A stretch of 64,000 bases of DNA from Ottowia flava. Lineage in GTDB: Bacteria > Pseudomonadota > Gammaproteobacteria > Burkholderiales > Burkholderiaceae_C. Positions within the stretch are counted from its first letter, which is position 1, and every line of letters begins with the position of its first letter. Under the pieces are notes generated by a model. The model was not told the origin of the DNA. It ran no database searches and was given only the letters and a program-made list of their open reading frames with translations. Below, one piece after another: positions 26,256 through 53,790 of the stretch. The translations under genes were made by a program, and so were the position numbers. Where the stretch lies: assembly GCF_008017535.1 (NCBI RefSeq), contig NZ_VRUA01000002.1, positions 248,001-312,000 on the forward strand. Reading direction: 5' to 3'.

Positions 26256-26369
26256 GCACAGCCCCCGCCCCCACCAGCGAACGCGATGGCCGGACCTGAG
26301 CCGGCCAATCGCGTTGTCCCCCCTCCCGCAGGAGAGAGGGGAAGGCGCGAAGCGACTCAGGGGGGTGCA
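26256..26369 (-). repeat. R2 repeat copy between exbB and exbD
   Basis: Reads in exbB sense from immediately after the exbB stop: TGCACCCCCCTGAGTCGC, a pyrimidine-rich stretch, GGGAGGGGGGACAACGC, then the conserved hairpin at 26280-26315 and TCGCTGG. One of three copies in the window. Confidence 0.85.
26280..26315 (-). other. R2 36-nt hairpin
   Basis: Minus strand: left arm AACGCGATTGGCCGG, loop CTCAGGT, right arm CCGGCCATCGCGTT. Fourteen pairs with one bulged T. Stem sequence differs from the other two R2 hairpins, but pairing and the loop pattern CKCRGGT are kept. Confidence 0.85.
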
Positions 26370-27008
26370 TCAATGCCCCGCCATGAGCTCGCGCAAATCG
26401 CGCGCAAAGCCTTCCAGCTCGGCCTCGATCCGGCCAATCGTGCGGCCGAACCAGTTGTAGGCGAGCACGGCGGGAATGGCCACAGCCAGGCCGGCGGCGG
26501 TCATGATCAGCGCCTCGCCCACCGGGCCGGCGACCTTGTCGATGCCGATCTGGTTGGCGGCGGCGATGCTGGTCAGCGCGTGGTAGATGCCCCAGACGGT
26601 GCCCAGCAGGCCGACGAAGGGCGCGGTGGAGCCCACCGTGGCCAGCAGCACCTGGCCGAACTGCAGGCGGCCCATGGTGGCATGCAGCGTGTCGCGCAGC
26701 ACGCGGGTCAACTGCTGCGCACGGTCACCGGCCGCGGCCAGCGTGCCACCGGCGGGGCGCTGCGTGGCGGCGATCAGCGGCGTGACCAGCTGGCCCTTGT
26801 CGAAGCCGCCGATGCGCGTGGCCGCTTCGTCCAGCGACGGCGCCTGCCAGAACGCGGTAACGCTGCGCGCCACGTCGCTGCTCGCGCGGCGCAGCATCCA
26901 GGCCTTGTAGAGGATGACCACCCAGCTGGCGATCGACATGAGCAGCAGCAGGATGGCCACGGCCTTGCCGATGGCGTCGCTCTGCGAAAAGACGTGTTGG
27001 AGGTTCAT
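26370..27008 (-). CDS. exbB: ExbB/TolQ/MotA-family proton channel protein
   Basis: The 212-residue protein has three hydrophobic segments: IGKAVAILLLLMSIASWVVI near the N-terminus, VLLATVGSTAPFVGLLGTVW in the middle and IMTAAGLAVAIPAVLAYNWF near the end. The GSTAPFVGLLGTVWGI motif is diagnostic of MotA/TolQ/ExbB proteins. It forms the pentameric channel that harvests proton flow for TonB-dependent uptake with ExbD. A TonB-dependent receptor is encoded at 60718-62868. No tonB gene is visible here. Confidence 0.9.
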   Translation of the reverse strand: MNLQHVFSQSDAIGKAVAILLLLMSIASWVVILYKAWMLRRASSDVARSVTAFWQAPSLDEAATRIGGFDKGQLVTPLIAATQRPAGGTLAAAGDRAQQLTRVLRDTLHATMGRLQFGQVLLATVGSTAPFVGLLGTVWGIYHALTSIAAANQIGIDKVAGPVGEALIMTAAGLAVAIPAVLAYNWFGRTIGRIEAELEGFARDLRELMAGH

Positions 27009-27034
27009 GGTCTGAAGTTACCTGATTCGGGGGT

Positions 27035-27847
27035 TCAGCGAAGGTTCAGCACGTCGTACATGTCATACAAACCGTTGCGCTTGTCGGCCAGGAAGCGCGC
27101 GGCGCGCAGTGCGCCCTGGGCGTAGCCCTGGCGATTGGAAGATTTGTGGCTGATCTCGATGCGCTCGCCGGTGCCAGCGAACAGCACGGTGTGGTCGCCC
27201 ACGATGTCGCCACCGCGGATGGTGGCAAAGCCGATGGTGGACGGGTCGCGCTCGCCGGTGTGGCCAAAGCGCTCGTACACGGCGCAGTCCTTCAGGTCGC
27301 GGCCCAGGGCTTCGGCGATGACTTCGCCCATCTTCAGCGCGGTGCCGCTGGGCGCGTCCACCTTGTGGCGGTGGTGCGCCTCGATCACCTCGATGTCGTA
27401 GCCGGTGGACAGGGCCTTGGCGGCCATTTCCAGCAACTTGAAGGTGACATTCACACCGACACTCATGTTCGGTGCAAAGACGACCGGAATGTCCTTGGCC
27501 GCCGCGGTGATGTCGGCCTTTTGTTCATCCGAGAAGCCCGTGGTGCCGATGACGAGGCCCACGCCGTTCTTCTGGCAGGCGGCGAGGTGCGCCATGGTCG
27601 CCTCGGGGCGGGTGAAGTCGATCAGCACGCGGGCCGGCTTCAGGCCCGTGTCCAGGTCGGCCGTCACCTTGACGCCCGATGCCCAGCCAGCGGGAGCGCC
27701 CGCGTCCTGGCCCAGGGCAGGGCTGTCGCTGCGGTCCAGTGCACCGGCCAGCGCGCAGTCGCCGGACTGGCGGATGGCGTCGATCAGCATCTGGCCCATG
27801 CGCCCACTGGCGCCGGCAACAGCGATGGGCAAAGCAGAAAATGTCAT
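27035..27847 (-). CDS. dapB: 4-hydroxy-tetrahydrodipicolinate reductase
   Basis: The 270-residue protein fits DapB length. The NAD(P) site is [14 protein letters not shown] at the start. The catalytic motif is [20 protein letters not shown] and the substrate loop NMSVGVN. It reduces hydroxy-tetrahydrodipicolinate in lysine and diaminopimelate synthesis. The ATG at 27847 begins [15 protein letters not shown]. Longer in-frame translation upstream has no family support. It sits 26 bp before exbB and 64 bp after bamE on the same strand. Confidence 0.96.
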
Positions 27848-27911
27848 GCAGTCTTTCAGTTTGGCGAGCGCCACGCGCCCACCTGTGCACCCTTGCGGTG
27901 CGCAGACCAGC

Positions 27912-28484
27912 TTACCGCTGCGGCTCCAGGGGTGGGTAACTACCGGCAGGGCGGGGCTGCGCCTCCTGCGTCGCCGACCCTGCGCCTGTCCCGGCGCCCT
28001 CGCCCTCGCTCGGCGCGGGAAACTTGGCGAGTTGTTCTTCGGTGGCCTCCAGCTGAGGCACCTTGACCTTTTTCGTGCGCGTGATGCGCTGCACGAACTC
28101 GGCCTCGCTGGGCATCTCGTCGCCCTCGTGGCGCTCAAGCAGGTCGTCCTTGAAGAACAGCGAGAGCTTGTAATGCTGTTCCGGCACGCCCTGGCGCTTC
28201 ATGGTGAAGACGTAGTCCCAGCGGTTGCCGTGGAACACGCTGGTCATCAGCGGCGTGCCCAGCACGTCACGCACCTGCAGGCGCGTCATGCCGGGCTGCA
28301 GCTGGGCCACCTGCTCCTTGGAGACGAAGTTGCCCTGCACCACTTCGGGCTTGTACAGGGTGATTGCGTCGGCCATGCTGCGCGTGGCCGAATCGAAGCT
28401 GCTGCAGGCCCCCAGGCCGCAGACCAGCGCTACCAGCATGACCGGACGGATCATGCGGGCATGGGGTCGAGAAATGTCCACCAT
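27912..28484 (-). CDS. bamE: Outer membrane assembly lipoprotein BamE (SmpA/OmlA)
   Basis: The protein has a lipoprotein signal with lipobox CGLGAC (Cys27 from the ATG at 28484, or Cys17 from 28454). The BamE fold is recognisable from [37 protein letters not shown] and [11 protein letters not shown]. It is longer than E. coli BamE (113 residues) because of a proline- and glutamate-rich tail of about 60 residues. BamE stabilises the BAM complex that folds outer membrane proteins. It is divergent from fur, a conserved arrangement in betaproteobacteria. Confidence 0.92.
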
Positions 28485-28562
28485 GAATCCGAGCTCATGC
28501 ACAATACGAGCCGGACATTGTAGCGGTGCGCATTTTTCGCGCGCTGCGCAACCCGGGACGGC

Positions 28563-29027
28563 ATGGACACCATCGACGAACTCAAGAGCACTGGCCTGAA
28601 GGCCACGCTGCCGCGCCTGAAGATCCTCGAGATCTTCCAGAAGGCCGATCAGCGGCACATGACAGCGGAAGACGTCTACCGCCTGCTGCTGGCCGAGCAG
28701 TCCGATATCGGACTGGCCACGGTGTACCGCGTGCTCACGCAGTTTGAACAGGCGGGCATCCTGAACCGCAACCACTTCGAGGCCGGCAAGGCGGTCTACG
28801 AGCTGCGCGACGACCAGCACCACGACCATCTGGTGTGCCTGGACTGCGGTCACGTAGAAGAGTTCTACGACCCCGAGATTGAAAAGCGCCAGAACGCGGT
28901 GGCCAAGGCCAAGGGCTTTCACATCGCCGATCATGCACTGAGCCTGTACGCCAACTGCACCAAGACCGACTGCCCCTACCGCGCGGCTGCGGCACCTGGC
29001 TCAGGTATTCGCCGGCCGGCGACCTGA
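28563..29027 (+). CDS. fur: Ferric uptake regulator
   Basis: The 154-residue protein has the winged helix ([20 protein letters not shown] and [19 protein letters not shown]). The dimerisation domain carries metal ligands [16 protein letters not shown] and a second Cys pair in NCTKTDCPY. With Fe(II) it represses iron uptake genes. I see no clear Fur box in the 78-bp region shared with bamE. The C-terminal [10 protein letters not shown] extension is slightly longer than in E. coli. Confidence 0.97.
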
Positions 29028-29044
29028 CAGCGGAAATTCACCAA

Positions 29045-29110
29045 GAATCGGCCTCCAGCGCACGGCAGGTCTGCGCAGATAGCTATTAATAATATAGCTA
29101 TCTGCCGACT
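29045..29110 (+). repeat. R1-variant repeat between convergent fur and hprK
   Basis: Contains AATCGGCCTCCAGCGC, then TCTGCGCAGATAGCTATT, the second R1 subfamily with its core mirrored to form the hairpin at 29075-29105. Confidence 0.65.
29075..29105. terminator. Perfect 12-bp hairpin between fur and hprK
   Basis: GCAGATAGCTAT, a 7-nt loop, then ATAGCTATCTGC. Arms are perfectly complementary. Being symmetric and between convergent genes, it may stop or stabilise transcripts from both sides. There is no long T run, so a classical intrinsic terminator is uncertain. Confidence 0.5.
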
Positions 29111-29122
29111 CAAGCACGCGCC

Positions 29123-30079
29123 TCAGACTTCTGCGTCGCGCTCCATGGCCTTGCGGTGTCGCTCGACGAATTCCTGGTAGGTATCGATGCCACGCAACTG
29201 CAGGATGTGGTTGCGCACCGCCGCCTCGACCAGCACAGCGATGTTGCGGCCCGCCACCACCTGGATGATGGCCTTCTGGATCGGCACGCCCAGCACCTCC
29301 TGCGTCAGCGGCTCATAGGGCATGCGCTCGTAGTCGCGCTCCATCGTTTCGCGCCGCACCAGGTGCACGATCAGCTTGAGCCGCATGCGCCGGCGAACCG
29401 CCGTCTCACCGAAGATGGCACGGATGTCGAGCAGACCAATGCCACGCACTTCCAGCAGGTTCTGCAGCAGCTCGGGGCAGCGCCCTTCGATGGTGGTCTG
29501 GTTGATGCGGAACAGGTCGACCGCGTCGTCGGCCACCAGCCCATTGCCGCGCGAGATCAGCTCCAACCCCAGTTCGCTTTTGCCCAGGCCGGATTCCCCC
29601 GTGATCAGCACGCCCAGGCCCAGGATGTCCATGAACACGCCGTGCATGGTCGTGCGGTTGGCAAAGTGCTTGGACAGGTAGGCCCGCAGCACGTCGACGA
29701 CGAAAGCGGCCGACTCGTGGGTGGCGAACAGCGGAATCTGCGCCCGCTCGCACATCGACACCAGGGCTTCGGGCGCGGCCTGTCCGTCGCACAGCACCAG
29801 CACCGGCGGCTCCAGCGTGACGATGCGCGAGATGCGGCGTGCACAATCTTCCGGCGCGGCGTTGGTCAAGTAGGCGATTTCGCGTGTGCCGAGGATCTGC
29901 ACACGGTACGGATGGATGTAGTTCAGGTAGCCAACCAGGTCGGCGCTGGACTGCGCCTCGCGGACGGCCACCTCGTCGAAACGCCGCTCCGAGGCGCCCA
30001 GCCCGGCGATCCATTGCCAGCGCAGGCTGGCGCGGTGGTCCTCGAACAGGACATCGGCACTGATGACGGTGGGCTTCAT
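29123..30079 (-). CDS. hprK: HPr kinase/phosphorylase
   Basis: The 318-residue protein has the HprK N-terminal domain (about residues 1-125). The kinase core has the Walker A loop [20 protein letters not shown] (about 155-165), the acidic DDAVDLFRI and the signature [20 protein letters not shown]. In proteobacteria it acts with the nitrogen-PTS. It belongs to the conserved hpf-ptsN-hprK group on the minus strand. The rapZ gene often found next is replaced here by convergent fur. Confidence 0.96.
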
Positions 30080-30158
30080 GGCGCAGTTGCAGCGAAGGGT
30101 AGCCGCAGTCTATGCGAAGCCGTCACGGGGCGGTCTTCGCCCGCTCAGAGGGCTGATG

Positions 30159-30626
30159 TCAGGCCGCTTGTGCGGGCTGCCACTGGGCGATCAGCCCGTG
30201 CAGGTCTTCGACGCTGGCGGCCGACTTGACGCGCTCGCGCAGGTTGCTGTCGCTCAGCAACTCGGCAATCTCGGACAGAATTTCCAGGTGCTTTTGCGTC
30301 GCCGCCTCGGGCACCAGCAGAAAGATCAGCAACCCGACGGGCTGCTCGTCCGGGGCGTCGAAGCCGATGGGCTGCGCCAACTGCAGCACAGCGGCCATCG
30401 GCGCCTTCAGGCCCTTGATGCGCCCGTGTGGAATGGCCACGCCGTGGCCCAGGCCCGTGGAGCCCAGGCGCTCACGCGCGAACAGGCTGTCGGTGATCAG
30501 GGCGCGCGAGAGACCGTGCAGGTTCTCGAACAGCAGGCCGGCTTCCTCGAACGCCCGCTTCTTGCTGGTGGCGTCGACGCCCACCAGCACTTGCGAGGCC
30601 GGGAGAATGGATGCGAGACGGTTCAT
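30159..30626 (-). CDS. ptsN: PTS IIA-Ntr component
   Basis: The 155-residue protein carries the phospho-accepting His67 in GHGVAIPHGRI and the fold elements GFDAPDEQPVGLLIFLLVPE and HLEILSEIAELLSD. PtsN takes phosphate from NPr and regulates potassium transport and nitrogen-linked functions. It stands between hpf and hprK on the same strand, a conserved order. rpoN is not adjacent in this window. Confidence 0.96.
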   Translation of the reverse strand: MNRLASILPASQVLVGVDATSKKRAFEEAGLLFENLHGLSRALITDSLFARERLGSTGLGHGVAIPHGRIKGLKAPMAAVLQLAQPIGFDAPDEQPVGLLIFLLVPEAATQKHLEILSEIAELLSDSNLRERVKSAASVEDLHGLIAQWQPAQAA

Positions 30627-30795
30627 GGCTTAGGGGCCGAATTATGCCCTGCACAGATCAAGAAACGACACCGGTGGCAACAGGCGCCGGCGCACGACAA
30701 CGGTGGACTCGGGTAATAAGTCCGCCAAACCACCAGATCGGGCCGTGACCCGAACCGGCTGCAAGCGCGGCATTGTGCAGCATCCAGAAAGCGTT

Positions 30796-30825
30796 CAAGC
30801 CGCCCGGTGAAACCGGCGCGGCTTG
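30796..30825 (-). terminator. Stem-loop in the hpf-ptsN gap
   Basis: CAAGCCGCCCGGT, GAA, ACCGGCGCGGCTTG forms a 13-pair stem with one bulge, about 55-85 nt after the hpf stop. There is no T run on the transcribed strand, so it may be an attenuator or RNA stabiliser between hpf and ptsN. Confidence 0.55.
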
Positions 30826-30839
30826 CAGTGGGTTTTTGA

Positions 30840-30857
30840 GGCCGCCCGGAGGCGGCC
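30840..30857 (-). other. UNCG-type hairpin just after hpf
   Basis: On the transcribed strand GGCCGCC, TCCG, GGCGGCC gives a 7-bp stem closed by a C(UCCG)G tetraloop of the very stable UNCG class. It starts 23 nt after the hpf stop and precedes the second stem-loop. Confidence 0.6.
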
Positions 30858-30880
30858 GTGAAATGCCTGGCAGAACGTCC

Positions 30881-31213
30881 TTACACCAGGTGCTTGGCGG
30901 CGACCGCCCGGTCGTGCGACTGCACCTTGTCCTTGTGACGTACCACCTGGCGGTCCAGCTTGTCCATCAATTCGTCGACGGCAGCGTAAAGGTCTTCGTG
31001 TGCGCTTTCGGCAAACAGGTCGTTGCCCTTGACGCGAATGGTGCATTCGGCGCGCTGGCGTTTGTCCTTTTCCTTCTGGTTTTCAACCGAGAGCAACACC
31101 TTGACGTCCACCATCTGATCAAAGTGCCGTGTGACCCGGTCAAGCTTGCTGGTCACATAGCCGCGCAAGGCAGGGGTAACTTCCAGATGGTGTCCGCTGA
31201 TCGTCAAGTTCAT
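30881..31213 (-). CDS. hpf: Ribosome hibernation-promoting factor
   Basis: The 110-residue protein is a short-form HPF/YfiA protein: [40 protein letters not shown] and the basic [11 protein letters not shown] end. It binds the small ribosomal subunit in stationary phase and helps form inactive 100S ribosomes. It heads the ptsN-hprK group. Its upstream region holds an inverted repeat and two TGAC-N3-GTCA palindromes shared with divergent corA. Confidence 0.95.
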
Positions 31214-31249
31214 GTAGGGCCTCCATTCCTGACGGGATAAACGGCCGGC

Positions 31250-31268
31250 GCACCACCGGTTGTGGTGC
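31250..31268. promoter_or_regulatory. Inverted repeat upstream of hpf
   Basis: GCACCAC, 5-nt centre CGGTT, GTGGTGC: 7-bp perfect arms, 36-55 nt upstream of the hpf ATG. It could be an operator or a hairpin in the hpf leader. Confidence 0.45.
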
Positions 31269-31280
31269 CCTGGCCACCCA

Positions 31281-31318
31281 TGACTGCGTCAGATCGCTGA
31301 GGTCATGACGCCGTCATG
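31281..31318. promoter_or_regulatory. Paired TGAC-N3-GTCA palindromes between hpf and corA
   Basis: TGACTGCGTCA at 31281-31291 and CATGACGCCGTCATG at 31304-31318 (perfect 7-1-7). Both share TGAC-N3-GTCA and their centres are 25 bp apart. The second can be read as a dimeric operator of an unidentified regulator. Confidence 0.5.
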
Positions 31319-31573
31319 CAAGCTCACTATGCCTGTGATCGGAGCGCGTGGCAACGGTCGCCATCAATTCCCGGCGACCCTGCTGAGACCGCCCCCAAAA
31401 CGCCTGGCCAATGCCATAATCCGAGGGTTTTTCCTCACTCGAAAGCCCCGCCTTGGAACCCGTCCCGAGTCGCTAGCTTTCGCTCCCTGGGATCCGCTGG
31501 CGCGGGGGGCTGAAAGCCATCACACCCTGCTGCGCCGCACCGTCCTGCCCCGAAATCCCCAGGGAGTCTGCCC

Positions 31574-32560
31574 ATGCTCAACGTTTTCACGCTGTCGAAC
31601 GGACGGCTGTTTCAGGAAGAAATCGAATCCCTCGAGGAGCTCTCCAAGTTCCGCCCGATCTGGGTGGACCTGGAAGAACCCACGACCGAAGAAAAGCGCT
31701 GGGTGCGCCAGTACTACGGCCTGTCGATTCCGGAAGACGCGATCGACGACGACATTGAAGAGTCGGCCCGCTTCTACGAAGAAGACAACGGCGAGCTGCA
31801 CATCCGCAGCGACTTCCTGGTGGCCGACCCCGACGAGCCGCAGCAGGTGCGCGTGGCCTTCATCCTGAACATGACCAACGAGCTGCTGCGCAGCCACGGC
31901 GTGCTGTTCTCGATCCACGACGAAACGGTGCCCGCCTTTCGCCTGCTGCGCATGCGCGCGCGGCGCATGCCCGGGCTGCTGGCCGACGCCAAGGAAGTGC
32001 TGCTCAAGCTGTTCGACGCCGACGCCGAGTACTGCGCCGACACGCTGGAAGGCGTTTACGACGAGCTGGAAACGGCCAGCAAGAAGGTGCTGGACGGCAA
32101 CGTGGGTGACGAGGTCGCCAGCGAGGTGCTGGGCGCCATCGCCCGCCAGGAAGACATGAACGGGCGCATCCGCCGCAACGTGATGGACACGCGCCGCGCC
32201 GTCAGCTTCCTGATGCGCAGCAAGATGCTGGACGCCGAGCAGTTCGAAGAAGCCCGCCAGATCCTGCGCGACATCGATTCGCTGGACAGCCACACCACCT
32301 TCCTGTTCGACAAGATCAACTTCCTGATGGACGCCACGGTCGGTTTCATCAACATCAACCAGAACAAGATCATCAAGCTGTTCTCGGTGGCCAGCGTCGC
32401 GCTGCTGCCGCCGACGCTGATTGCCAGCGTGTACGGGATGAACTTCAAGGTCATGCCCGAGCTGGAATGGCAGTATGGCTACGCCTGGGGCATCGGCCTG
32501 ATGATCGCCAGCGCGCTGCTTCCGATGTGGTATTTCCGGCGGCGCGGCTGGTTGAAGTGA
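31574..32560 (+). CDS. corA: Magnesium/cobalt transporter CorA
   Basis: The 328-residue protein has a large cytosolic N-terminal domain. It ends in two transmembrane helices (IIKLFSVASVALLPPTLIAS and WGIGLMIASALLPMWYFRRR) separated by the signature YGMNF (about residue 286). The helix before the first membrane segment (DKINFLMDATVGFININQNK) lines the pore in CorA structures. It forms a pentameric Mg2+ channel. An R2 element begins three bases after the stop. Confidence 0.96.
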   Translation: MLNVFTLSNGRLFQEEIESLEELSKFRPIWVDLEEPTTEEKRWVRQYYGLSIPEDAIDDDIEESARFYEEDNGELHIRSDFLVADPDEPQQVRVAFILNMTNELLRSHGVLFSIHDETVPAFRLLRMRARRMPGLLADAKEVLLKLFDADAEYCADTLEGVYDELETASKKVLDGNVGDEVASEVLGAIARQEDMNGRIRRNVMDTRRAVSFLMRSKMLDAEQFEEARQILRDIDSLDSHTTFLFDKINFLMDATVGFININQNKIIKLFSVASVALLPPTLIASVYGMNFKVMPELEWQYGYAWGIGLMIASALLPMWYFRRRGWLK

Positions 32561-32563
32561 AGG

Positions 32564-32690
32564 GCACCCCCCTGAGGCGCTGACGCGCCTTCCCCCCTCT
32601 CTCTGCGCGCTGCGCGCTTCGGGAGGGGGGACAACGCCAGTTGCCGGCGCGGGTCCGGCAACGGCGTTCGCTGGGCTGTTGGCCGGGCGC
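32564..32690 (+). repeat. R2 repeat copy after corA
   Basis: Starts immediately after the corA stop: GCACCCCCCTGAGGCGC, a pyrimidine stretch, GGGAGGGGGGACAACGCC, then the hairpin at 32633-32668 and TTCGCTGGG. The upstream CCCCCCTC and GAGGGGGG can also pair. Confidence 0.85.
32633..32668 (+). other. R2 36-nt hairpin
   Basis: Left arm AACGCCAGTTGCCGG, loop CGCGGGT, right arm CCGGCAACGGCGTT. Fourteen pairs with one bulged A near position 7. Same architecture as the hairpins at 26280 and 53735, with compensated stem differences. Confidence 0.85.
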
Positions 32691-32767
32691 GCGGATTGGG
32701 GCGGTCGGGTGAATTGGGTGTGCTGGGCGTACCGCGGCGCGCTTCGACACACGTGCGCCAAGCGATG

Positions 32768-32825
32768 AAATTCAGATGAAATCACCCCTCCACCCTACAC
32801 CCACCTGCGCGAACAGCTCCCGTTT
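32768..32825 (+). repeat. R1 repeat copy between convergent corA and mtnN
   Basis: Plus strand: TCCACCCTACACCCACCTGC, then GCGAACAGCTCC. It ends directly at the mtnN stop codon. Confidence 0.8.
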
Positions 32826-33617
32826 TCAGAGCATCTCAAAGAACCTATCGAGCGTGGTGGCGCTGTAGCGGCTGGCGACGGTGTCGATGAAGCGAGTGAA
32901 GTCGACGTGGGCGCTGTCGTCGGCGCGGTCGGAGATGGTGCGCAGGGCGGCCAGGGGGATGCCGTAGTCGTGGCAGACCTGGGCGACGGCGGCGCCTTCC
33001 ATTTCGACGGCCAGGGCGTCCGGCAGACGCTGGCGCAGGGCCTGGCTTTCGGCGCTGGTGGCGACGAAGCGGTCGCCGCTGACGATCAGGCCGTCGTGCA
33101 GGCGCGGGGCGTGCAGCGCGAATTCTTGCACCGCGGCGGCGCCCAGCGCTTCCTCGGGCCGCACGAGGACCTGCTCTGTGGCGGCGCGCAGCGTGGCGCT
33201 CAGGCCCGCGTCGGCCTCGAACAGGGCGCGCCCGTACAGCGGAACTTCGTGCGGCGGGAACAGGGGCGAGGCGTCCATGTCGTGCTGCAGGAAGGCGTCC
33301 GCCAGTACCACGTCGCCCACGCGCACGCCCTGCCCCAGACCGCCGGCGACGCCGGTGAAGACGATATGGGTGACGCCAAAGCGCTCGATCAGCGCGGTGG
33401 CGGTGGTCGCGGCGGCCACCTTGCCGATGCGCGACAGCACGGCGACGACCTCGTGCCCGCGCCAGTGGCCGACCCAGAAGTCGCGCCCGGCGGCGGACTG
33501 GCGCTGCTCGTCGGGCAGCGTCTTCAGCACCTCGCTCAGCTCCTGGTGCATCGCGCTCATCAGGCCGATGCGGCGCGGCGAATTCAAAGCGAAAAACCCT
33601 TCACGCCCTACAACCAT
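32826..33617 (-). CDS. mtnN: 5'-methylthioadenosine/S-adenosylhomocysteine nucleosidase
   Basis: The protein (263 residues from the ATG at 33617) belongs to the PNP/UDP phosphorylase superfamily: RRIGLMSAMHQELSEVL at the start, FTGVAGGLGQGVRVGDVVLA, the ribose-site ALAVEMEGAAVAQV and RTISDRADDSAHVDF. It cleaves methylthioadenosine and S-adenosylhomocysteine to adenine and the thioribose product. No ATG lies between the fold start (RRIGLM) and the R1 repeat upstream. Either the ATG inside the repeat is used, or a TTG at 33587 preceded by GAAGGG. The repeat therefore shapes the N-terminus. Confidence 0.9.
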   Translation of the reverse strand: MVVGREGFFALNSPRRIGLMSAMHQELSEVLKTLPDEQRQSAAGRDFWVGHWRGHEVVAVLSRIGKVAAATTATALIERFGVTHIVFTGVAGGLGQGVRVGDVVLADAFLQHDMDASPLFPPHEVPLYGRALFEADAGLSATLRAATEQVLVRPEEALGAAAVQEFALHAPRLHDGLIVSGDRFVATSAESQALRQRLPDALAVEMEGAAVAQVCHDYGIPLAALRTISDRADDSAHVDFTRFIDTVASRYSATTLDRFFEML

Positions 33618-33650
33618 CTGCGCAAGCAGCTATCTAATCAATAGCGAATG
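33588..33650 (+). repeat. R1 repeat copy overlapping the mtnN start
   Basis: Near-consensus: CACGCCCTACAACCATCTGC, then GCAAGCAGCTATCTAATCAA and TAGCGAA. It is antisense to fadD and mtnN. Its CAT complement gives the ATG at 33617, and the same bases encode MVVGRE of the long mtnN frame. Confidence 0.85.
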
Positions 33651-33658
33651 TCAGCCGA

Positions 33659-35377
33659 CTAATTGACCGAAACGGTGCCCGCTGCCGGCGCAGCGGCCGG
33701 GGCGGGCGCGTCGCGCAGCTCGCGGCGCAGCACCTTGCCAACGGGGGTTTTGGGCAGTTCGGTGCGGAACTCGATGACGCGCGGGCGCTTGTAGCCGGTG
33801 AGGTTGTCGTGGCAGAACTGGCGCACGGCGTCTTCGGTGAGCGCCGGGTCTTTTTTGACGATGACGAGCTTGACGGCCTCGCCCATGCGCTCGTCCGGCA
33901 CGCCAACGGCGGCCACTTCGAGCACGCCGGGCATGGCGGCCACGACGTCTTCCACTTCGTTCGGGTAGACGTTGAAGCCGCTGACCAGGATCATGTCCTT
34001 CTTGCGGTCGACTATTTTTGTGTAGCCGCGCTCGTCCATCACACCGATGTCGCCCGAGCGGAAGTAGCCGTCGGCCGTCATGACCTTGGCGGTTTCATCG
34101 GGCCGCTGCCAGTAGCCGGCCATGACCTGCGGGCCCTTGATGCCGATCTCGCCCGGCTGGCCGAGCGGCACCTCGTTGCCCGCATCGTCCAGGATCTTGA
34201 TGTAGGTGCTGGGGATCGGCAGGCCGATGGTGCCGGTGAATTCCTTGTTGGTCACCGGGTTGCAGGTGGCCGAGGGGCTGGTTTCGGACAGACCGTAGCC
34301 CTCACAGATCGGGCAGCCGGTCTTTTCGAGCCAGAGCTTGGCCACCGCGCCCTGCACCGCCATGCCGCCACCGACCGACACCTTCAGGTTCTTCCAGTTC
34401 ACGGTGTTGAAGTCGGGGTGGTGCGCCAGCCCGTTGAACAGGGTGTTGACGGCCGGAAAGCTGTGAAAGGTGTGCTTGGACAGCTCTTTCAGCGTGGCGG
34501 GCAGATCGCGCGGGTTGGGGATCAGGATGGTCTTGCCTCCCGTGCGCATGCTCAGCATCATGTTCACCGTGAAGGCGAAGATATGGTAGAGCGGCAGCGC
34601 GCAGATGTTGGTGGACTGCTCGCCGGCCGGCACCCGCTTCATCGCGGGGTCGTTCCAGGCCTCGGACTGCAGCACGTTGGCGATCACGTTGCGGTGCAGC
34701 AGCATCGCGCCCTTGCTGACGCCGGTGGTGCCGCCGGTGTATTGCAGCACGGCGATGTCGTCTGGCGCGATGGCCGGCGCGCTGAAGGGCGCGCCACGGC
34801 CCTTGGCCACCGCATCGTTGAAGCGCACGGCGCCGGGCAGGCGGTAGGCCGGCACCAGCTTCTTGACCTTGCGCACCACGAAGTTGACGATCAGCCCTTT
34901 CAGCCCGCCCAGGCGGTCGCCCATGCTGGCCAGCACCACGTGCTTGACCGGCGTGCTGGCGATGCACTTGTCCAGCGTGGCGGCGAAGTTCTCGATGATG
35001 ACGATGGCCTTGGCGCCGGAATCCTTCAGCTGGTGCTCCAGCTCGCGCGCGGTGTAGAGCGGGTTGACGTTCACCACGACGTAGCCCGCGCGCAGGATGG
35101 CCGCCACAGTGGCGGGGTACTGGGGCACGTTGGGCATCATGATGGCCACGCGGTCACCGCGCGCCAGGCCCAGGCTCTGCAGGTAGGCCGCCAGCGCGCG
35201 GCTTTGCGCGTCGGTGTCGGCGTAGCTGAAGTCCTTGCCCATGAAGCTGTACGCCGCGCGGTCGGCGTACTTCTTGAAGCTCTCCTCGATCAGCGCCACC
35301 AGCGACGGGTACTGCGTCTCGTCGATGTCGGCGGGAACGCCTTCCGGGTAGTGCTTGAGCCAGATGCGCTCGGTCAT
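33659..35377 (-). CDS. fadD: Long-chain fatty acid--CoA ligase
   Basis: The 572-residue adenylate-forming enzyme has the P-loop YTGGTTGVSKGAMLLHRN (about residue 214), EGYGLSETSP, the hinge region YFRSGDIGVMDERGY and the catalytic-lysine end LPKTPVGKVLRREL. It activates fatty acids to acyl-CoA at the inner membrane. A short alanine/proline tail (APAPAAAPAAGTVSVN) is unusual but not alarming. The 244-bp upstream region holds no gene. Acyl-CoA from this enzyme could feed the operon at 1-3295 only indirectly. Confidence 0.92.
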   Translation of the reverse strand: MTERIWLKHYPEGVPADIDETQYPSLVALIEESFKKYADRAAYSFMGKDFSYADTDAQSRALAAYLQSLGLARGDRVAIMMPNVPQYPATVAAILRAGYVVVNVNPLYTARELEHQLKDSGAKAIVIIENFAATLDKCIASTPVKHVVLASMGDRLGGLKGLIVNFVVRKVKKLVPAYRLPGAVRFNDAVAKGRGAPFSAPAIAPDDIAVLQYTGGTTGVSKGAMLLHRNVIANVLQSEAWNDPAMKRVPAGEQSTNICALPLYHIFAFTVNMMLSMRTGGKTILIPNPRDLPATLKELSKHTFHSFPAVNTLFNGLAHHPDFNTVNWKNLKVSVGGGMAVQGAVAKLWLEKTGCPICEGYGLSETSPSATCNPVTNKEFTGTIGLPIPSTYIKILDDAGNEVPLGQPGEIGIKGPQVMAGYWQRPDETAKVMTADGYFRSGDIGVMDERGYTKIVDRKKDMILVSGFNVYPNEVEDVVAAMPGVLEVAAVGVPDERMGEAVKLVIVKKDPALTEDAVRQFCHDNLTGYKRPRVIEFRTELPKTPVGKVLRRELRDAPAPAAAPAAGTVSVN

Positions 35378-35621
35378 GGGGCCGGTACTCCTTCAGTTGA
35401 ACGCCGCCGGGCAGGGCGACGCAGGGGGAAGCGAACGGCCGCGCGGTGCACGGCCAGAACCTCGCATTGTGTGACCTGATGTTCCGGCGAGGTACTGGCG
35501 TTTTCCTGAGTCACCCGAACGCGACACCTGAAGTACCGCTAAGAGATACTTTTCGCACGGTCGTTCGAAAACAGCACTGCGCCGCAATCCCGGGCGGTTG
35601 CTGGCCCCGCCCGGCGTGAGG

Positions 35622-37055: not shown

Positions 37056-37072
37056 CGGATGTTTCTCCTCTT

Positions 37073-37092
37073 TTTATAGCTGCTTGCGCTTA
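37073..37092 (-). repeat. Truncated R1 repeat between pntA2 and pntB
   Basis: Directly at the pntA2 stop: GCGCAAGCAGCTATAAAAAG. The CCCTAC half is missing. The element leads into the pntB ribosome site. Confidence 0.6.
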
Positions 37093-37407: not shown

Positions 37408-37456
37408 GGCGATCTCCAGGGGCGGGCTGGCGTCAGGCGTTGCAGGAAAAACAGGC

Positions 37457-38317: not shown

Positions 38318-38340
38318 GGCGTAAAACTGAGCCAGGAAAA

Positions 38341-43763: not shown

Positions 43764-43830
43764 CGACAGCAAAACCAGAAGCCCTGGCGTGCAACAACAG
43801 CGCAGCCGACGCAGCGCCGCGCCAGCGCTC

Positions 43831-43859
43831 AAGAAAAAGGAACCCCCTGAACAGGGGGT
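43831..43859 (-). terminator. Terminator-like hairpin in the leader of the binding-protein gene
   Basis: Minus strand: ACCCCCT, loop GTTC, AGGGGGT, then TCCTTTTTCTT. It lies 68-96 nt upstream of the binding-protein ATG and points toward it. It is either an attenuator or the end of an undetected minus-strand transcript. Confidence 0.55.
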
Positions 43860-43949
43860 GCGGCGAGTGTGCCAACGGCGGCGGCCTGCTGCCATGCGCA
43901 ATAACCCGTAGGTATTCGTCGCCCATGTCGCGCTGCGGATAATCGGGGG

Positions 43950-45116: not shown

Positions 45117-45147
45117 ACCGGGCGGTGCGCGCTCAGGCAGGGCGCAC

Positions 45148-45217
45148 CAATTTTCAAGCAAAATCGACCTTCAGCCCTACAGCCACCTGCGTAACCAGCT
45201 CCTTATTTGGTAGCAAA
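45148..45217 (+). repeat. R1 repeat copy after mnmA
   Basis: CAATTTTCAAGCAAAATCGA, CCTTCAGCCCTACAGCCACC, then TGCGTAACCAGCTCC and TTGGTAGCAAA. A full-length copy sense to mnmA and between convergent genes. Confidence 0.85.
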
Positions 45218-45247
45218 TGGACAGATGCATCGGGAAGATACGGGTGC

Positions 45248-46156: not shown

Positions 46157-46178
46157 GAACTTGGCTCAGTAAATCGTG

Positions 46179-46194
46179 AATCGATCAGGCGATT
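46179..46194. promoter_or_regulatory. Candidate LysR binding site
   Basis: AATCG, 6-bp centre ATCAGG, CGATT forms a perfect 5-bp-arm inverted repeat of LysR-site size, in the middle of the 72-bp gap between the regulator and the reductase gene. Confidence 0.5.
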
Positions 46195-46228
46195 ATCAAA
46201 TTGACTGCGCTGCTTTACGCTTGTTGGC

Positions 46229-47269
46229 ATGAACACACGCACCTCCTCCCCTTCTTCTTCAACCGCTGTCGCGGCGCGCGCGCTGGGCCACGTGCTGCCG
46301 CCGGTCTTTCCGATCGGCCTGGGTTGCATGGGCATGAGCGAGTTCTACGGCGACAGCGACGACGCCGAATCGCTGGCCACGCTAACGCGTGCGGTCGAGC
46401 TGGGCGTGACCCTGTTCGACACCGCCGACACCTACGGCCTGGGCGCCAACGAGGCGCTGCTGGGCCGCTTTCTGGCCGAAGGCGGCAACGCCCTGCGCGA
46501 CCGGCTGGTGCTCGCGACCAAGTTCGGCATCGTGCGCGCGCCGGGCGTGTACGAGCGCCGCATCGACAACTCGCCCGCCTACATCCGCGCAGCGTGCGAG
46601 GCCTCGCTGCAGCGCCTGGGCGTGGACCACATCGACCTGTACTACTGCCACCGACGTGACACCGCGGTGCCGATCGAGGACGTGGTCGGCGCCATGGCCG
46701 AGCTGGTGCAGGCCGGCAAGGTGCGCGCCATCGGCCTGTCGGAAGTCAGCGCCGACACGCTGCGGCGCGCCCACGCCGTACACCCGATCGCCGCGGTGCA
46801 ATCCGAATATTCGCTGTGGGCGCGCGAAGCCGAGCACGACATGCTGCCGCTGTGCGCCGAGCTGGGCGTGGGCTTTGTCGCCTACAGCCCGCTGGGCCGC
46901 GCCTTCCTGACCGGCGCACTGGACACCGGCGCGCTGGCCCAGAACGACTTTCGCGCCCACCACCCGCGCTTTCAGGGCGAGGCGGCCCAGGCCAACGCGG
47001 CGCTGGTCGCGCATCTGGGCGCGCTGGCGGCCAGCTGGGGCTTGTCTAACGCGCAGCTGGCCCTGGCCTGGCTGCTGGCCAAGCAGCCGCATGGGGTGCC
47101 GATCCCCGGCACGCGGCGCCAGCGCTGGCTCGAGCAGAACGTGGCTGCCGCAGGCGTGCGCCTGAGCGCCGAGCAGATGGCCGCCGTGGAAGCCGTCTTC
47201 ACCCCCGACGCGGCCCAGGGCGCGCGCTACCCCGAAGCCGGCTGGGCCGGCATGGAAACCCGGACCTGA
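46229..47269 (+). CDS. Aldo/keto reductase
   Basis: The 346-residue TIM-barrel enzyme shows the family tetrad. The Asp and Tyr lie in [18 protein letters not shown], the Lys in [10 protein letters not shown] and the His in DLYYCHRRD. The NADP-binding end has [20 protein letters not shown]. It probably reduces carbonyl compounds with NADPH; the substrate is unknown. It is divergent from and probably regulated by the adjacent LysR protein. Confidence 0.9.
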
Positions 47270-47360
47270 TCGTCCCACGCCACCAACGCGGGCGCCGCCT
47301 GCCTGCACGAAACAGGCCAATTGCCGATAATGCTGGGTTGCCCTTTTGGGACCCCCCGCA

Positions 47361-50348
<2,988 letters not shown>

Positions 50349-50409
50349 CGGCTTCGGGGCCCAGTTCCGATCAGTCCGCCTACGCAGCCGCCAGTCGGCG
50401 AGACCTGTA

Positions 50410-51315
50410 TCAGCCTGGACCGTGTCCGAGCAAACACTCTGTGAGCAAACGCGCCGCAGTGGTGAGGCGTTTGCGGGGAGGATACAGCAGGTGGAACGGC
50501 CTCGAACGCCCGCGCATTTGCGGCAACACCTCAACCAGTCGCCCCCTCGATAGGTCCTCCTTCACCGCAAAGTCATAGGTTTGGCAAATGCCAAGCCCTT
50601 GCGCGGCAAGCGAAACGGTCGCCAGGACATCCCCGGACACTGCAAAGGTGACAGGAGGTTGCCAGTCCACCGGTTCGCCTTCGACTTGCAGCAGCCAAGG
50701 CACAACACGTCCGGTGCTTGGCAGCACAAACGGCAGACATCGGTGCTGTGCGAAGTCGCTCAGGCCGCTCGGTGGCGCCCGCTCTGCCAGGTACTGAGGC
50801 GCCGCGACCAAACACAACGCCGCTTGCTCCAGCAAGCGCGCCTGGATCTCGCGCTCAGGTGGCGCGCCCAGACGGATCGCTAAGTCAAACCCTTCGGCCA
50901 CCAAATCCACATTGCGATTGGTGATATCGATGTCCAACTCGATGAGGGGATAAAGGCGCGTGAACCTGGCCAAATACTCTGGCAGTCGGTGGTGTCCGTA
51001 GGTGGTGGGTGCCGTCAACCGAACCCTGCCTTGGGGCGCACCGTCGCTGTCACGCAACTCGCGCTCCACCGCTTCAATCTGGGCCAGAGCACCCTGAGCA
51101 TGCTCCCAATACTGACGCCCTTTTTCCGTCAGACTGAGGCGTCGTGTGCTTCGGCGCAACAGTTGGCAGCGTAACCGCGCCTCAAGCCGCGCTACGGCGC
51201 GGCTCACGACAGAGGGCGTCGTCGCCAACGCGACCGCCGCGGCGCTCATCGAGCCCAACTCCACGACCACGACAAAGGCCTCCAGATCGGGTACATGGTC
51301 AAACCTACGACCCAC
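50410..51315 (-). CDS. LysR-family transcriptional regulator next to a DJ-1/PfpI protein
   Basis: The 301-residue protein starts at a GTG (51315). The winged helix is FVVVVELGSMSAAAVALATT then PSVVSRAVARLEARL. The sensor domain includes TAPTTYGHHRLPEYLARFTR and GLGICQTYDFAVKEDLSRGR, a layout common to the CrgA-like group. It is divergent from a DJ-1/PfpI-family gene across a 100-bp AT-rich region. It is somewhat richer in AT codons than its neighbours. Confidence 0.88.
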   Translation of the reverse strand: MGRRFDHVPDLEAFVVVVELGSMSAAAVALATTPSVVSRAVARLEARLRCQLLRRSTRRLSLTEKGRQYWEHAQGALAQIEAVERELRDSDGAPQGRVRLTAPTTYGHHRLPEYLARFTRLYPLIELDIDITNRNVDLVAEGFDLAIRLGAPPEREIQARLLEQAALCLVAAPQYLAERAPPSGLSDFAQHRCLPFVLPSTGRVVPWLLQVEGEPVDWQPPVTFAVSGDVLATVSLAAQGLGICQTYDFAVKEDLSRGRLVEVLPQMRGRSRPFHLLYPPRKRLTTAARLLTECLLGHGPG

Positions 51316-51334
51316 TTTTGCTCCAAAGGTAAAA

Positions 51335-51378
51335 ATAAATTGTCATTAACCTACTTTATCTCGCTCTGAGCAATTTAT
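51335..51378. promoter_or_regulatory. Long-spaced inverted repeat between the LysR and DJ-1 genes
   Basis: ATAAATTG at 51335-51342 and CAATTTAT at 51371-51378 are perfect 8-bp arms with a 28-bp spacer, in the AT-rich divergent promoter region. They may be two half-site clusters for the LysR tetramer. Confidence 0.45.
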
Positions 51379-51415
51379 AAAGTTCGGCTTTTCTTTCATT
51401 CACAAGGCGCACCGC

Positions 51416-52108
51416 ATGTCCGAGCCCACTTCACTCCCTCTGTTATTTGTGCTGACCAGCCACGGCCTTACGGGCAGGACCGGAAAGCCGACGGGTTATT
51501 ACCTGCCCGAAGTCACGCATCCGCTCACCGTGTTGCAAGCAGCCGGAATCCCCGTGGAATTTGCATCGATTCAAGGCGGCGAGCCGCCGGTGGATGGCTT
51601 GGATCTGAGCGATCCAGACAACGCCCGGTACTGGAGCGATCCTGCTTTCCGCGCCGCCGTCCGCCAAACTACTGCGCTCGCCCGAGTCGACCCTGCGCGC
51701 TATGCGGGCATCTTCTTCGCGGGCGGTCACGGCGCCATGTGGGACTTCCCCTCCAACCAAGCTGTGCACCACGTTACGCGCCACATCTATGAAGCTGGCG
51801 GAATCGTGGGAGCCGTCTGCCACGGGCCTGCGGCGCTGGTGAATGTCACCTTGAGCAACGGTCGACCACTTGTGGCGGGCCGCCAATTGGCCGCCTTCAC
51901 CAACGCCGAGGAGCAAGCCGTTGGTTTGAGCGAAGTGGTCCCATTTTTACTCGCTGACAGCCTGATCGCTCAGGGCGCGCAGCATCTGCCAGCAGCCAAC
52001 TGGACGCCGCAGGTTGTGGTCAATGGAGCCCTTATCACCGGGCAGAACCCTCAGTCGGCGCGCGGCGTGGGTGAGGCGCTGCGCGACGCCTGGATCCAAC
52101 ACCTATAA
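51416..52108 (+). CDS. DJ-1/PfpI-family protein (type 1 glutamine amidotransferase-like)
   Basis: The 230-residue protein has the Hsp31-like layout: GKPTGYYLPEVTHPLTVLQA with a conserved Glu, the core YAGIFFAGGHGAMWDFP, and the nucleophile elbow VGAVCHGPAALV with its cysteine. Members act as glyoxalase III, deglycase-like or chaperone proteins under carbonyl or oxidative stress. It is divergent from the LysR regulator. Base composition is less GC-rich than the surrounding housekeeping genes, which could reflect later acquisition. Confidence 0.88.
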   Translation: MSEPTSLPLLFVLTSHGLTGRTGKPTGYYLPEVTHPLTVLQAAGIPVEFASIQGGEPPVDGLDLSDPDNARYWSDPAFRAAVRQTTALARVDPARYAGIFFAGGHGAMWDFPSNQAVHHVTRHIYEAGGIVGAVCHGPAALVNVTLSNGRPLVAGRQLAAFTNAEEQAVGLSEVVPFLLADSLIAQGAQHLPAANWTPQVVVNGALITGQNPQSARGVGEALRDAWIQHL

Positions 52109-52164
52109 CTCTTTAGTCCGCTACAAAAACAGAAGCGCAACGCATGTTTACGGGGCAGGCAGGA

Positions 52165-52419
52165 TCAGATTCGTAGCAAGATCGATCCGATCGTGAATGC
52201 GCCCTGACGTGCAGTCGACCGCATGACTTTCCCGTGCCGCCCGCGCCGCCGCAAGGCAGCCCGGGGCAAGGGGTCTTCAGTTTTTGTGAAGGCTGGCGCC
52301 GGTCCAGTGTCCAGCACGCACCAGCGCGCGTGCCACGTCGCCGAGCACCACGCGCGCGCGCGCCCCATGCTGCCGAGCTCGCAGACTTTGGCGAAGTAAC
52401 GCAGCTGGCGCAGTTCCAT
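52165..52419 (-). pseudogene. Remnant of a LysR-family regulator gene
   Basis: An open frame of 84 codons starts MELRQLRYFAKVCELGSMGR. This matches the first helix and turn of LysR regulators (MELRQLRYFxxVxELGSM). The expected continuation (a second helix and recognition helix) is missing: after about residue 22 the sequence loses all family resemblance, and no LysR sensor domain follows on any frame. It is best read as a deletion or rearrangement remnant. The adjoining 52484-52575 sequence is equally featureless. Confidence 0.6.
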
Positions 52420-52574
52420 GGGGCTAGGGCCAGCGACGCGGCGCGCCCTGCAGGGCGCACGCCGGCCGCCAGACGAGGCGCTGGTCGCGGGTTGGGGTGG
52501 CGCAGACCGTGGGCATGCACCATGCTAGCGCGTTGGCACCGACGCAGGCGCTGCCCCGCCCTTCGACTGAATAG

Positions 52575-52650
52575 GCATCAAATCGGCCATTGAAGCTACA
52601 ACCGCCAGCGCTGACAGCTACCAAACAAATAGCAGGCGCTGGCACATAAG
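52575..52650 (+). repeat. R1-variant repeat copy upstream of the rhodanese gene
   Basis: CATCAAATCGGCCATTGAAG, then CCAGCGCTGACAGCTACC and AGCAGGCGCTGGC. This is the second R1 subfamily with GCGCT instead of GCGCA; part is repeated in inverse order. Confidence 0.55.
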
Positions 52651-52724
52651 CTTCTGACGAAACTGTATTTGCCGGGCACCTCTGCGTGGCGACAATACAG
52701 GGTTTGCCTCGTGAAAACGGCCCC

Positions 52725-53678
52725 ATGTCGCCCCTGATCCGATTCCTGCTCGCCCTGCCTGCGCTGCTGTGGGCTTCCATCGCCTGCGCGGCCACGCCAT
52801 TGATCGGCCCGGCGGAGCTGAAGTCGTTGGCCGACCAGGGCGCGGTCCGCATCGTCGACGTGCGCGAAGCCGAGGCCTACGCCCTGCAGCATGTGCCGGG
52901 CGCGGTGTCGGCGCCCTACCTGACGCGCTGGCGCGGGCCGGCGACCAATCCTGGCCTGCCACCGTCGCAGGGTGCGTTGACCGCGCTGGTGCAATCGCTG
53001 GGCCTGACGCCCGAGACGCGCACCGTGCTGGTCTATACCGGCACCGATTCGAGCGATTTCGCCACCGCGGCGCGCGCGTACTGGACGCTCAAGAGCCTGG
53101 GCGCGCAGAACCTCTCGATCCTGAATGGCGGGCTGAACGCCTGGCGCAGTGCGGGCCTGCCGGTGAGCAACCAGGCGGCGGTGGCGCCGCGCAGCCAGTG
53201 GCAACCGACCTTCAACTCGCAGTGGTTGGCCACGCGCGAGGACGTGCGGGCGCTGCTCGGCCAGCCCGGTGCGGTGCTGGTGGATTCGCGACCGGCGCCG
53301 TTCTATCAGGGGCGTGTGCAGGTCGACCTGGCGCACGCCAAGGGCACGCTGCCGGGCGCCATCAACCAGGACAGCGATCTGTACTTTGAACTGGGCAGCG
53401 CCGTGCTGATGGACAAGGACAGCCTGCAGGCCGAGGCCGACAAGGCCCACGCCAAGCCCGAGCAGACCGTCGTGACGTTCTGCAACGCCGGGCACTGGAG
53501 CGCCACCGACTGGTTCGTCCGCTCCGAGCTGCTGGGCGAGCCCAACGTGAAGCTGTACGCCGGTTCGGTCATCGACTGGAGCCAGGCTCCGCAGGCGCTG
53601 CCGATGGTCAACGAGCCGACGCGCGCCGAAAAGCTGCGTCAAATGTTGGCGACCTGGGTGCAGCGGAATATCAAGTGA
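52725..53678 (+). CDS. Exported thiosulfate sulfurtransferase with two rhodanese domains
   Basis: The 317-residue protein has a signal peptide (FLLALPALLWASIACA) and two rhodanese domains. The first (about residues 25-155) has IVDVREAEAYALQHVPGAVS but a Thr where the catalytic Cys would be (VYTGTDSSDF). The second (about 170-300) has VDSRPAPFYQG and the active cysteine in TFCNAGHWSATDWF. An inactive first and active second domain is the usual rhodanese design. Location is probably periplasmic. It precedes a YeeE/YedE transporter, suggesting sulfur-compound processing coupled to uptake. Confidence 0.9.
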   Translation: MSPLIRFLLALPALLWASIACAATPLIGPAELKSLADQGAVRIVDVREAEAYALQHVPGAVSAPYLTRWRGPATNPGLPPSQGALTALVQSLGLTPETRTVLVYTGTDSSDFATAARAYWTLKSLGAQNLSILNGGLNAWRSAGLPVSNQAAVAPRSQWQPTFNSQWLATREDVRALLGQPGAVLVDSRPAPFYQGRVQVDLAHAKGTLPGAINQDSDLYFELGSAVLMDKDSLQAEADKAHAKPEQTVVTFCNAGHWSATDWFVRSELLGEPNVKLYAGSVIDWSQAPQALPMVNEPTRAEKLRQMLATWVQRNIK

Positions 53679-53681
53679 ACA

Positions 53682-53790
53682 CCACCCTGATGTGCCTGCG
53701 GCGTCTTCACTCCGCTCTCTTCGGGAGGAGGGACAACGCCGATGCCCGGCGCAGGTCCGGGCATGGCGTTTGCTGGAGGGCAGCGTCCGT
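53682..53790 (+). repeat. R2 repeat copy after the rhodanese gene
   Basis: Starts four bases after the stop: CACCACCCTGATGTGCC, TCGGGAGGAGGGACAACGCC, the hairpin at 53735-53770, then TTGCTGGAGGG. It lies within the 169-bp gap before the YeeE/YedE gene. Confidence 0.85.
53735..53770 (+). other. R2 36-nt hairpin
   Basis: Left arm AACGCCGATGCCCGG, loop CGCAGGT, right arm CCGGGCATGGCGTT. Fourteen pairs with one bulged G near position 7. Confidence 0.85.

Follow-up and report, generated by a model that had tools for sequence, protein, structure and literature searches.

A dispersed multi-hairpin element, usually placed directly behind stop codons, in Ottowia flava and other members of its family

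Three copies in the window and the parts of the element

We examined a 64,000-nt stretch of the Ottowia flava genome (assembly GCF_008017535.1, contig NZ_VRUA01000002.1, positions 248,001 to 312,000; C12:248001-312000 in our numbering, and hereafter "the window"), in which a structured repeat lies just 3' of the stop codons of exbB, corA and a gene for a rhodanese-domain protein. These three copies had been noticed in an earlier reading made from the letters alone (the sequence-only reading), which described each as lying behind a stop codon in gene sense and as carrying a 36-nt hairpin with one bulge. All three were found where that reading had placed them, at 2, 4 and 1 nt from the stop codons of exbB, corA and the rhodanese gene, respectively, measured in gene sense from the stop to the first conserved box, and Pfam backs the assignment of the three upstream proteins as ExbB/MotA/TolQ, CorA and rhodanese. 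A covariance model recovered them when run over the window with filters off, giving strong matches at 26246-26367 (minus), 32565-32697 (plus) and 53680-53802 (plus), with E values of 1.5e-24 to 6.1e-20 as compared to 0.15 for the next best match; the training set of this model contains the three copies themselves.

The 36-nt hairpin is real, but it is just the third hairpin (H3) of a larger element. As read from 74 distinct copies collected with a strict sequence pattern, and from an alignment (A2, made with MAFFT) of 71 of these that omits three copies with a low box score, the element spans about 110-140 nt. It begins, usually 0-10 nt after the stop codon, with an unpaired C-rich box (CACCCCCCTGAG), followed by hairpins H1, H2 and H3, the letters GCTGG and sometimes a fourth hairpin, H4 (GGCCTGCTCCGCGGCC; 44 of the 74 strict copies and 22 of the 61 copies in the O. 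flava genome). H1 is exemplified by GGCGC-TGAC-GCGCC, with stem variants GCGGC/GCCGC and GCCGC/GCGGC, and its commonest form has one mismatch; H2 pairs a C-run with a G-run across a loop of variable length; and H3 consists of 14 pairs, one bulge and a 7-nt loop, its loop and stem foot being conserved around a variable middle (partly imposed by the search pattern). A constant fifth hairpin was considered and rejected, as it occurs in only one of the 44 strict copies that have H4. Copies from other genera keep the same order of parts and differ in the top of H3 (six alignments), and in some places two elements stand head to tail in tandem (L192:2984-3226, L049:3990-4274 and L138:1354-1615).

In the three window copies, GGACAACGC and GCGTTYGCTGG are common to all (MAFFT), and the stem arms of H3 differ between copies while the two arms of every copy complement each other, as the sequence-only reading had it. 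The single bulge is also present in each, but in the exbB copy it sits about 2 pairs deeper in the stem than in copies 2 and 3. Compared with shuffled sequences, copies 1 to 3 all fold more stably on average, with z values of -2.65, -3.95 and -1.74, and 0, 0 and 13 of 200 shuffles fold equally well, copy 3 being the weakest.

Table 1. Copies of the element, their H3 hairpins and adjacent genes, in window coordinates
Feature	Position	Strand	Remarks
Copy 1	26246..26369	-	Between exbB and same-direction exbD; box CACCCCCCTGAG, H1, H2, H3; H4 not clear
H3 of copy 1 (hairpin of the sequence-only reading)	26280..26315	-	Stem AACGCGAT-T-GGCCGG / CCGGCC-ATCGCGTT, loop CTCAGGT
exbB (MotA/TolQ/ExbB family)	26370..27008	-	Upstream of copy 1; Pfam
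exbD	25759..26205	-	Downstream of copy 1, same direction
Copy 2	32561..32697	+	3' of corA; next gene convergent
H3 of copy 2	32633..32668	+	Stem AACGCC-A-GTTGCCGG / CCGGCAAC-GGCGTT, loop CGCGGGT
corA	31574..32560	+	Upstream of copy 2; Pfam CorA
Phosphorylase superfamily gene	32826..33617	-	Convergent neighbour of copy 2
Copy 3	53679..53802	+	Between rhodanese gene and sulphur-transport gene
H3 of copy 3	53735..53770	+	Stem AACGCC-G-ATGCCCGG / CCGGGCAT-GGCGTT, loop CGCAGGT
Rhodanese-domain protein gene	52686..53678	+	Upstream of copy 3; Pfam rhodanese
Sulphur-transport protein gene (PF04143)	53848..54996	+	Downstream of copy 3; start codon hand-picked

Distribution and placement of the copies

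The search for further copies that the sequence-only reading had proposed was fruitful. In the 4.12-Mb O. flava genome (G000) the strict pattern retrieved 25 copies, with none for the reversed pattern, and the covariance model retrieved 61; this model (R2) was built from 71 copies and replaced one (R1) made from the three window copies only. Across the genus, 22 of 29 genomes carry between 1 and at least 122 copies each, with at least 100 in seven genus members, and the covariance model found none in the other 7. Wider scans used stricter filters and scored few candidates, so that their counts are lower bounds: 64 of 150 genomes of the family matched (57 of 141 genera), as did 7 of 250 in a sample of the order (six of the same family and one, G271, of another) and 3 of 185 in a sample of the class, where the single genome from outside the family (G438) matched with an E value of 9.6e-4 only. 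A pattern scan of genome contigs yielded 43 stretches, whose sources were Ottowia, an isolate of the Comamonadaceae, and metagenome-assembled genomes labelled Ottowia, Rubrivivax, Burkholderiales or to the phylum level only.

Annotated plasmids gave partial matches only (5 records, covering at most 52% of the query, in one search and 3 records in another). On a plasmid of Achromobacter pestifer, a match from the box to H2 begins 3 nt 3' of a catechol 2,3-dioxygenase gene whose flanking genes run in the same direction; on pCNB of Comamonas testosteroni, a match from H2 to H4 lies between arsC and an arsenic transporter gene; and a Diaphorobacter plasmid has a match flanked by genes for a dioxygenase and an aldolase-family protein. 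A phage collection searched in distant mode with one query, a relative's copy, returned no match.

The element is strongly linked to stop codons, here judged against gene calls from a codon-usage model for which the window served as training sequence. None of the 61 copies in the O. flava genome lies inside a called gene, and 58 have the same orientation as their upstream gene (3 do not). As many as 55 start within -15 to +30 nt of a sense stop, with an actual spread of -11 to +21 nt from the end of the stop codon, and 49 of the 58 sense copies lie at most 9 nt from it, compared with 6.2 expected under uniform placement in free intergenic space and a maximum of 18 in 20,000 simulations. The linkage was replicated in other Ottowia (47/55 copies, these being the distinct ones among 56 matches) and in other genera (18/20; 17 of the 27 loci of the family scan were searched and 20 of 21 matches used, omitting a weak opposite-strand match on L141). 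Exceptions amount to 6/61, 8/55 and 2/20 in the three sets, so that the linkage to stop codons, which the sequence-only reading had asked to be checked, is general and not absolute. For one copy without an adjacent called sense gene (C5:4129), an Rfam search for a non-coding RNA gene at that place gave none. In four regions of other Ottowia that were picked for synteny and not for their copies, 11 of 16 model matches lie at -11 to 0 nt of a called sense stop and one at 38 nt, and one further copy lies 1 nt 3' of a stop codon that the caller missed, at the end of a reading frame finishing in DDDIPF, presumably that of the single-stranded DNA-binding protein (SSB).

The stop codons next to the copies are used as in other genes, with TGA in 38 of the 55 near copies and in 291 of 381 genes (p = 0.24). 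We therefore discard the DNA word TGA as a target; it is the stop codon as a translation signal that appears to mark the site. The next gene runs in the same direction behind 54/61 copies in O. flava, as compared to 259/381 called genes (p = 0.0007), and behind 47/55 in other Ottowia. In the near copies of O. flava, H1 mostly starts 8-20 nt 3' of the stop codon.

Comparison of orthologous junctions showed that the element can be present or absent at the same site. It lies directly 3' of the stop in 9 of 25 ExbB ortholog loci (30 loci minus 5 more distant ones with 45-54% identity; the match in L217 is on the other side of the gene, and L225 is cut by a contig end), in 11 of 25 CorA loci (26 minus the N-terminal fragment L256; L233 is cut) and in 1 of 12 rhodanese loci. 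In 10 of the 11 other rhodanese loci the stop reads ATGA and overlaps what is likely the start of the following gene; for the two genomes included in the synteny comparison, the called genes have a gap of -4 nt. In O. flava the two genes stand apart, with the element directly 3' of the stop. An exbB/exbD junction that lacks the element (G027) has a gap of 12 nt. Syntenic regions across five genomes contain 8 filled and 11 empty ortholog pairs. Since corA orthologs with the element end in TGA, TAA or TAG, the stop codon is not supplied by the element. What these junctions display is a difference at the site, by gain or by loss; it would probably be insertion rather than loss, most safely so at the rhodanese junction. 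The copies are present at some orthologous sites and missing at others, as expected of a dispersed unit and in keeping with the earlier suggestion of a mobile unit similar to the repetitive extragenic palindromic (REP) sequences, although the particular route of a GTAG-tagged REP driven by a REP-associated tyrosine transposase (RAYT) is unsupported (see below).

At the same junctions, some Ottowia species without the element carry a second repeat (GCCCCCACGCT...GCCCCCCGAGGGGGC), in tandem 3' of corA (L238, L240) and reversed before exbD, between exbB and exbD (L203, L204, L208); in the window it is not above chance.

Covariation and possible action

Compensatory change in the stems had been put forward as evidence that the fold is kept, and the larger set of copies agrees with this. 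In 59 of the 61 O. flava copies (E <= 1e-5; alignment A4, which was fitted to the covariance model and is biased towards it), 94.3% of pair cells hold standard pairs, and 182 cells carry double changes as compared to a mean of 48.6 in shuffled alignments, a number reached in none of 500 shuffles; with partners slid, only 16-39 such cells occur. Double changes affect 22 of the 28 pairs overall and 13 of the 14 pairs of H3, the outer and inner stem included. Alignment A2 gives 93.4% standard pair cells and 96 double-change cells (26.7 when shuffled) at 13 pairs, and sliding its partners by 1-3 columns lowers pairing to 40-54%. Taken alone, H3 is 98.3% paired in A2, with 71 double-change cells against 16.4 (0/500 shuffles); weaker measures are the 6 pairs with double changes, as compared to 4.0 and reached by 17/500 shuffles, and the 13 further pair types, matched by 10/500. 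Because the strict patterns fixed some stem-foot letters, the set found by the model in O. flava is fairer than A2; in all sets the copies share ancestry, which the shuffles leave in. One pair of H1 holds an uncorrected mismatch in 25 of the 59 copies.

These results support a fold that is kept while its letters change. We looked in the further copies for uncompensated stem changes and for missing stop-codon linkage, which the sequence-only reading had named as the observations that would speak against it, and neither overturned the claim. By itself, covariation is no proof of an RNA role, because few G-U intermediates are seen in H3 (8 of 615 pairs, from 42 of the 61 O. flava H3 segments folded) and copying from arm to arm in a DNA palindrome could also give matched changes.

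Covariation, sense abutment to stop codons and gain or loss at orthologous sites are all observed, and the element stands within likely operons, between exbB and exbD and, as its box-to-H2 half, in the catechol operon of the Achromobacter plasmid. The reading that we favour, to which we assign a probability of about one half on the strength of such sequence comparisons, is that of a dispersed, REP-like intercistronic element that would act at the mRNA level, just behind the terminating ribosome. A role at mRNA ends had been suggested before; the position of the copies fits it, and the role itself is what we infer. By the ribosome footprint, a start of H1 at 8-20 nt would coincide with the front edge of a ribosome that sits on the stop codon. 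In the transcript, the unpaired box (about 11 nt) would fill the mRNA channel of the terminating ribosome, so that H1-H3 would form immediately in front of it. These G+C-rich hairpins would block 3'-to-5' exonucleases and so shield the message of the upstream gene once it has been cleaved or released by Rho; they would also uncouple translation of the two cistrons and reduce expression of the downstream gene compared with that of the upstream gene. The copies would have spread by a route that is not evidently RAYT, and their placement at stop codons may come from selection, targeting or both. If this is correct, many genera of one family carry from a few to more than 100 copies per genome of a stop-fixed structured mRNA element, which would amount to an experiment replicated by nature on how hairpins behind stop codons tune expression in operons, and would bear on why dispersed palindromes occupy gene ends.

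Several observations weigh against this reading. Three of the 16 copies in the syntenic regions do not follow a sense stop; two of these occupy the same divergent intergenic site in two species (around C1:245931 in G025 and C1:530047 in G027), an orthologous exception to the linkage. The codon model used to call genes was home-made and missed at least one true stop. The excess of same-direction next genes is not repeated in other genera (13/20). H1 starts at most 15 nt from the stop in 29 of the 55 near copies, so that about half conform to the 15-nt rule for ribosome stalling in E. coli, reportedly the subject of a study of REPs by Liang et al. in 2015. Few G-U pairs are found in H3, which is less usual for a constraint acting on RNA only. 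Finally, the nearest copies within the O. flava genome are at most 91% alike, and there is thus no sign of a very recent burst of spread.

Alternatively, the element may be a selfish non-autonomous DNA repeat, resembling a REP or a miniature inverted-repeat transposable element, with hairpins that some transposase or recombinase would recognise as folded single-stranded DNA, any effect on mRNA being a by-product. We consider this unlikely, though it draws on the presence and absence at orthologous junctions, the tandem pairs, the scarcity of G-U pairs in H3, and the conserved loop and foot around a variable middle. It accounts for gain and loss, but a DNA enzyme is blind to which TGA, TAA or TAG is an in-frame stop, and the sense orientation and precise distance of the copies would follow from it only with strong selection. 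Nor is a RAYT gene needed: the O. flava genome has one gene of the RAYT type (Y1_Tnp; C23:30025), with none of the 61 copies near it, and a genome with 48 copies (G005, 99% complete) gave no Y1_Tnp match at E <= 1e-3. Yet REPs of the CGTC superfamily also lack a dedicated transposase, according to the available part of PMC3733652, and a missing RAYT link therefore does not exclude them. In another genome (G027; L096 and others), 20 Y1_Tnp matches were seen, some with the same score and some being two frame pieces of one gene, probably belonging to an active IS200-like element. Action at the mRNA level and a selfish DNA hairpin can both hold, as in REPs.

A role in ending transcription units, as a terminator or as a Rho-linked signal for 3' ends, would explain why the element lies directly 3' of stops, with a C-rich leader before strong G+C hairpins, and the median of 105.5 nt from the end of the element to the next same-direction gene would leave room for a promoter. 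We nevertheless regard it as quite improbable, since the element stands between exbB and exbD and, apparently, at the rhodanese junction that reads ATGA in most other species, and since convergent gene ends are under-represented in O. flava (7/61), though not in other genera (7/20). An intrinsic terminator in particular can be set aside, because a tract of TTTT or longer within 45 nt after H3 occurs in just 3 of 56 anchored copies (of the 61).

A bolder and highly unlikely possibility is that of a portable translation-termination element, in which the leader is sized for cover by the ribosome, the C-run of the box competes with the 5' arm of H2 for the G-run, the presence of the ribosome sets the fold and with it the fate of the mRNA, and insertion follows a translation- or RNA-linked route new to bacteria. 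The hint behind it, and it is a hint only, is that the C-runs of the box, the H2 5' arm and the H2 3' arm change in length together: of the 50 copies (out of 61) that could be parsed, 16 have 6/6/6 and 9 have 5/5/5. Between the box and the H2 3' arm r = 0.54, as high in 1 of 5000 permutations, with copy ancestry left in.

It is just as improbable that the covariation arose without selection for the fold, by template switching between the arms of a DNA palindrome: the changes are mostly double Watson-Crick ones with few G-U steps, as this predicts, but the H1 mismatch was left uncorrected, H1, H2 and H3 are all recognisable across genera, and position and sense go unexplained.

Comparison with known systems

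Rfam 15 has no family that fits the element: at the gathering score there were no matches in the window, and the one match at E <= 1 is not at the element. That match (BcKCsr7, 20746-20808 on the plus strand) has an E value of 0.21 and reaches 26.9 bits, where the gathering score is 59, and is most likely due to chance. The attC sites of integrons are likewise imperfect, bulged hairpins 3' of stop codons whose letters vary while the structure is kept, with the core RYYYAAC/GTTRRRY. The element differs in its feet, for which the strict copies have GGACAAC on one side and either GTTCGCT or GTTTGCT on the other (letters set by the pattern), and exbB, corA and the rhodanese gene keep their neighbours across species and are thus not cassettes. 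We therefore rejected attC.

The nearest parallels are among dispersed palindromes, and the many extragenic copies, 61 in O. flava with none in a called gene, are of the kind expected of REPs. As described in the accessible part of PMC3733652, REPs of the GTAG and CGTC superfamilies share with the element a dispersed distribution, frequent positions close to gene ends and hairpin stems that vary; that source gives REP lengths of 20-40 bp, an unpaired tag and, for CGTC REPs, stems of 8-9 bp with loops of 4-5 nt. No GTAG tag was found at the foot of the hairpin, where the 4 nt before AACGC are GGAC in 37 of the 43 copies (of 61) that match there, and GTAG or its complement occurs anywhere in only 3 of the 61. 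With copies that do not track RAYT genes, a RAYT-driven GTAG REP was rejected. CGTC or GACG occurs somewhere in 37/61 copies (21/61 as the TGACGC of H1 type), and at the 3' foot of H3 it is found only as paired letters within the stem (GGCGTC), in 4/61 O. flava copies and 8/17 copies of other genera. This paired minority tag, together with the 14 pairs and 7-nt loop of H3, also led us to reject a CGTC-tagged REP as that source describes it.

The REPs of E. coli and the bacterial interspersed mosaic elements (BIMEs) that they form are also short dispersed palindromes at gene ends; unlike them, the element comprises three to four hairpins and a leader box, and 55 of 61 copies are at a stop. For E. 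coli, the portion of the RepRanger paper at hand (PMC12306157) places 446 of 4,072 REPs at no more than 15 nt from a stop, the number in an earlier study being 260 of 496, and cites work reporting that such REPs stall ribosomes and lower translation.

Among the matches listed in our literature searches, in which subscription journals are thinly covered, the link of this element to stop codons is not described. The nearest described repeat among them is the Beta-proteobacterial repeat element (BRE) of Hot et al. 2011 (PMC3110155), and Bordetella repeats are also named among untagged REP-like families in the part of PMC3733652 noted above. As far as the available text of PMC3110155 goes, BREs are about 90 bp long (about 75-91 bp), have a G+C content of about 69%, are usually intergenic and sometimes overlap gene ends by a few bases; they occur in up to 29 copies per genome and also in tandem, in Bordetella and in Comamonadaceae (Polaromonas, Delftia, Acidovorax), and one copy region yields the small RNAs bprJ1 and bprJ2. 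The words "stop codon" and "hairpin" do not appear in that main text. Our element has a unit of about 110-140 nt, occurs in tandem pairs and is spread family-wide; compared by description only, the BRE may be its relative or the same thing.

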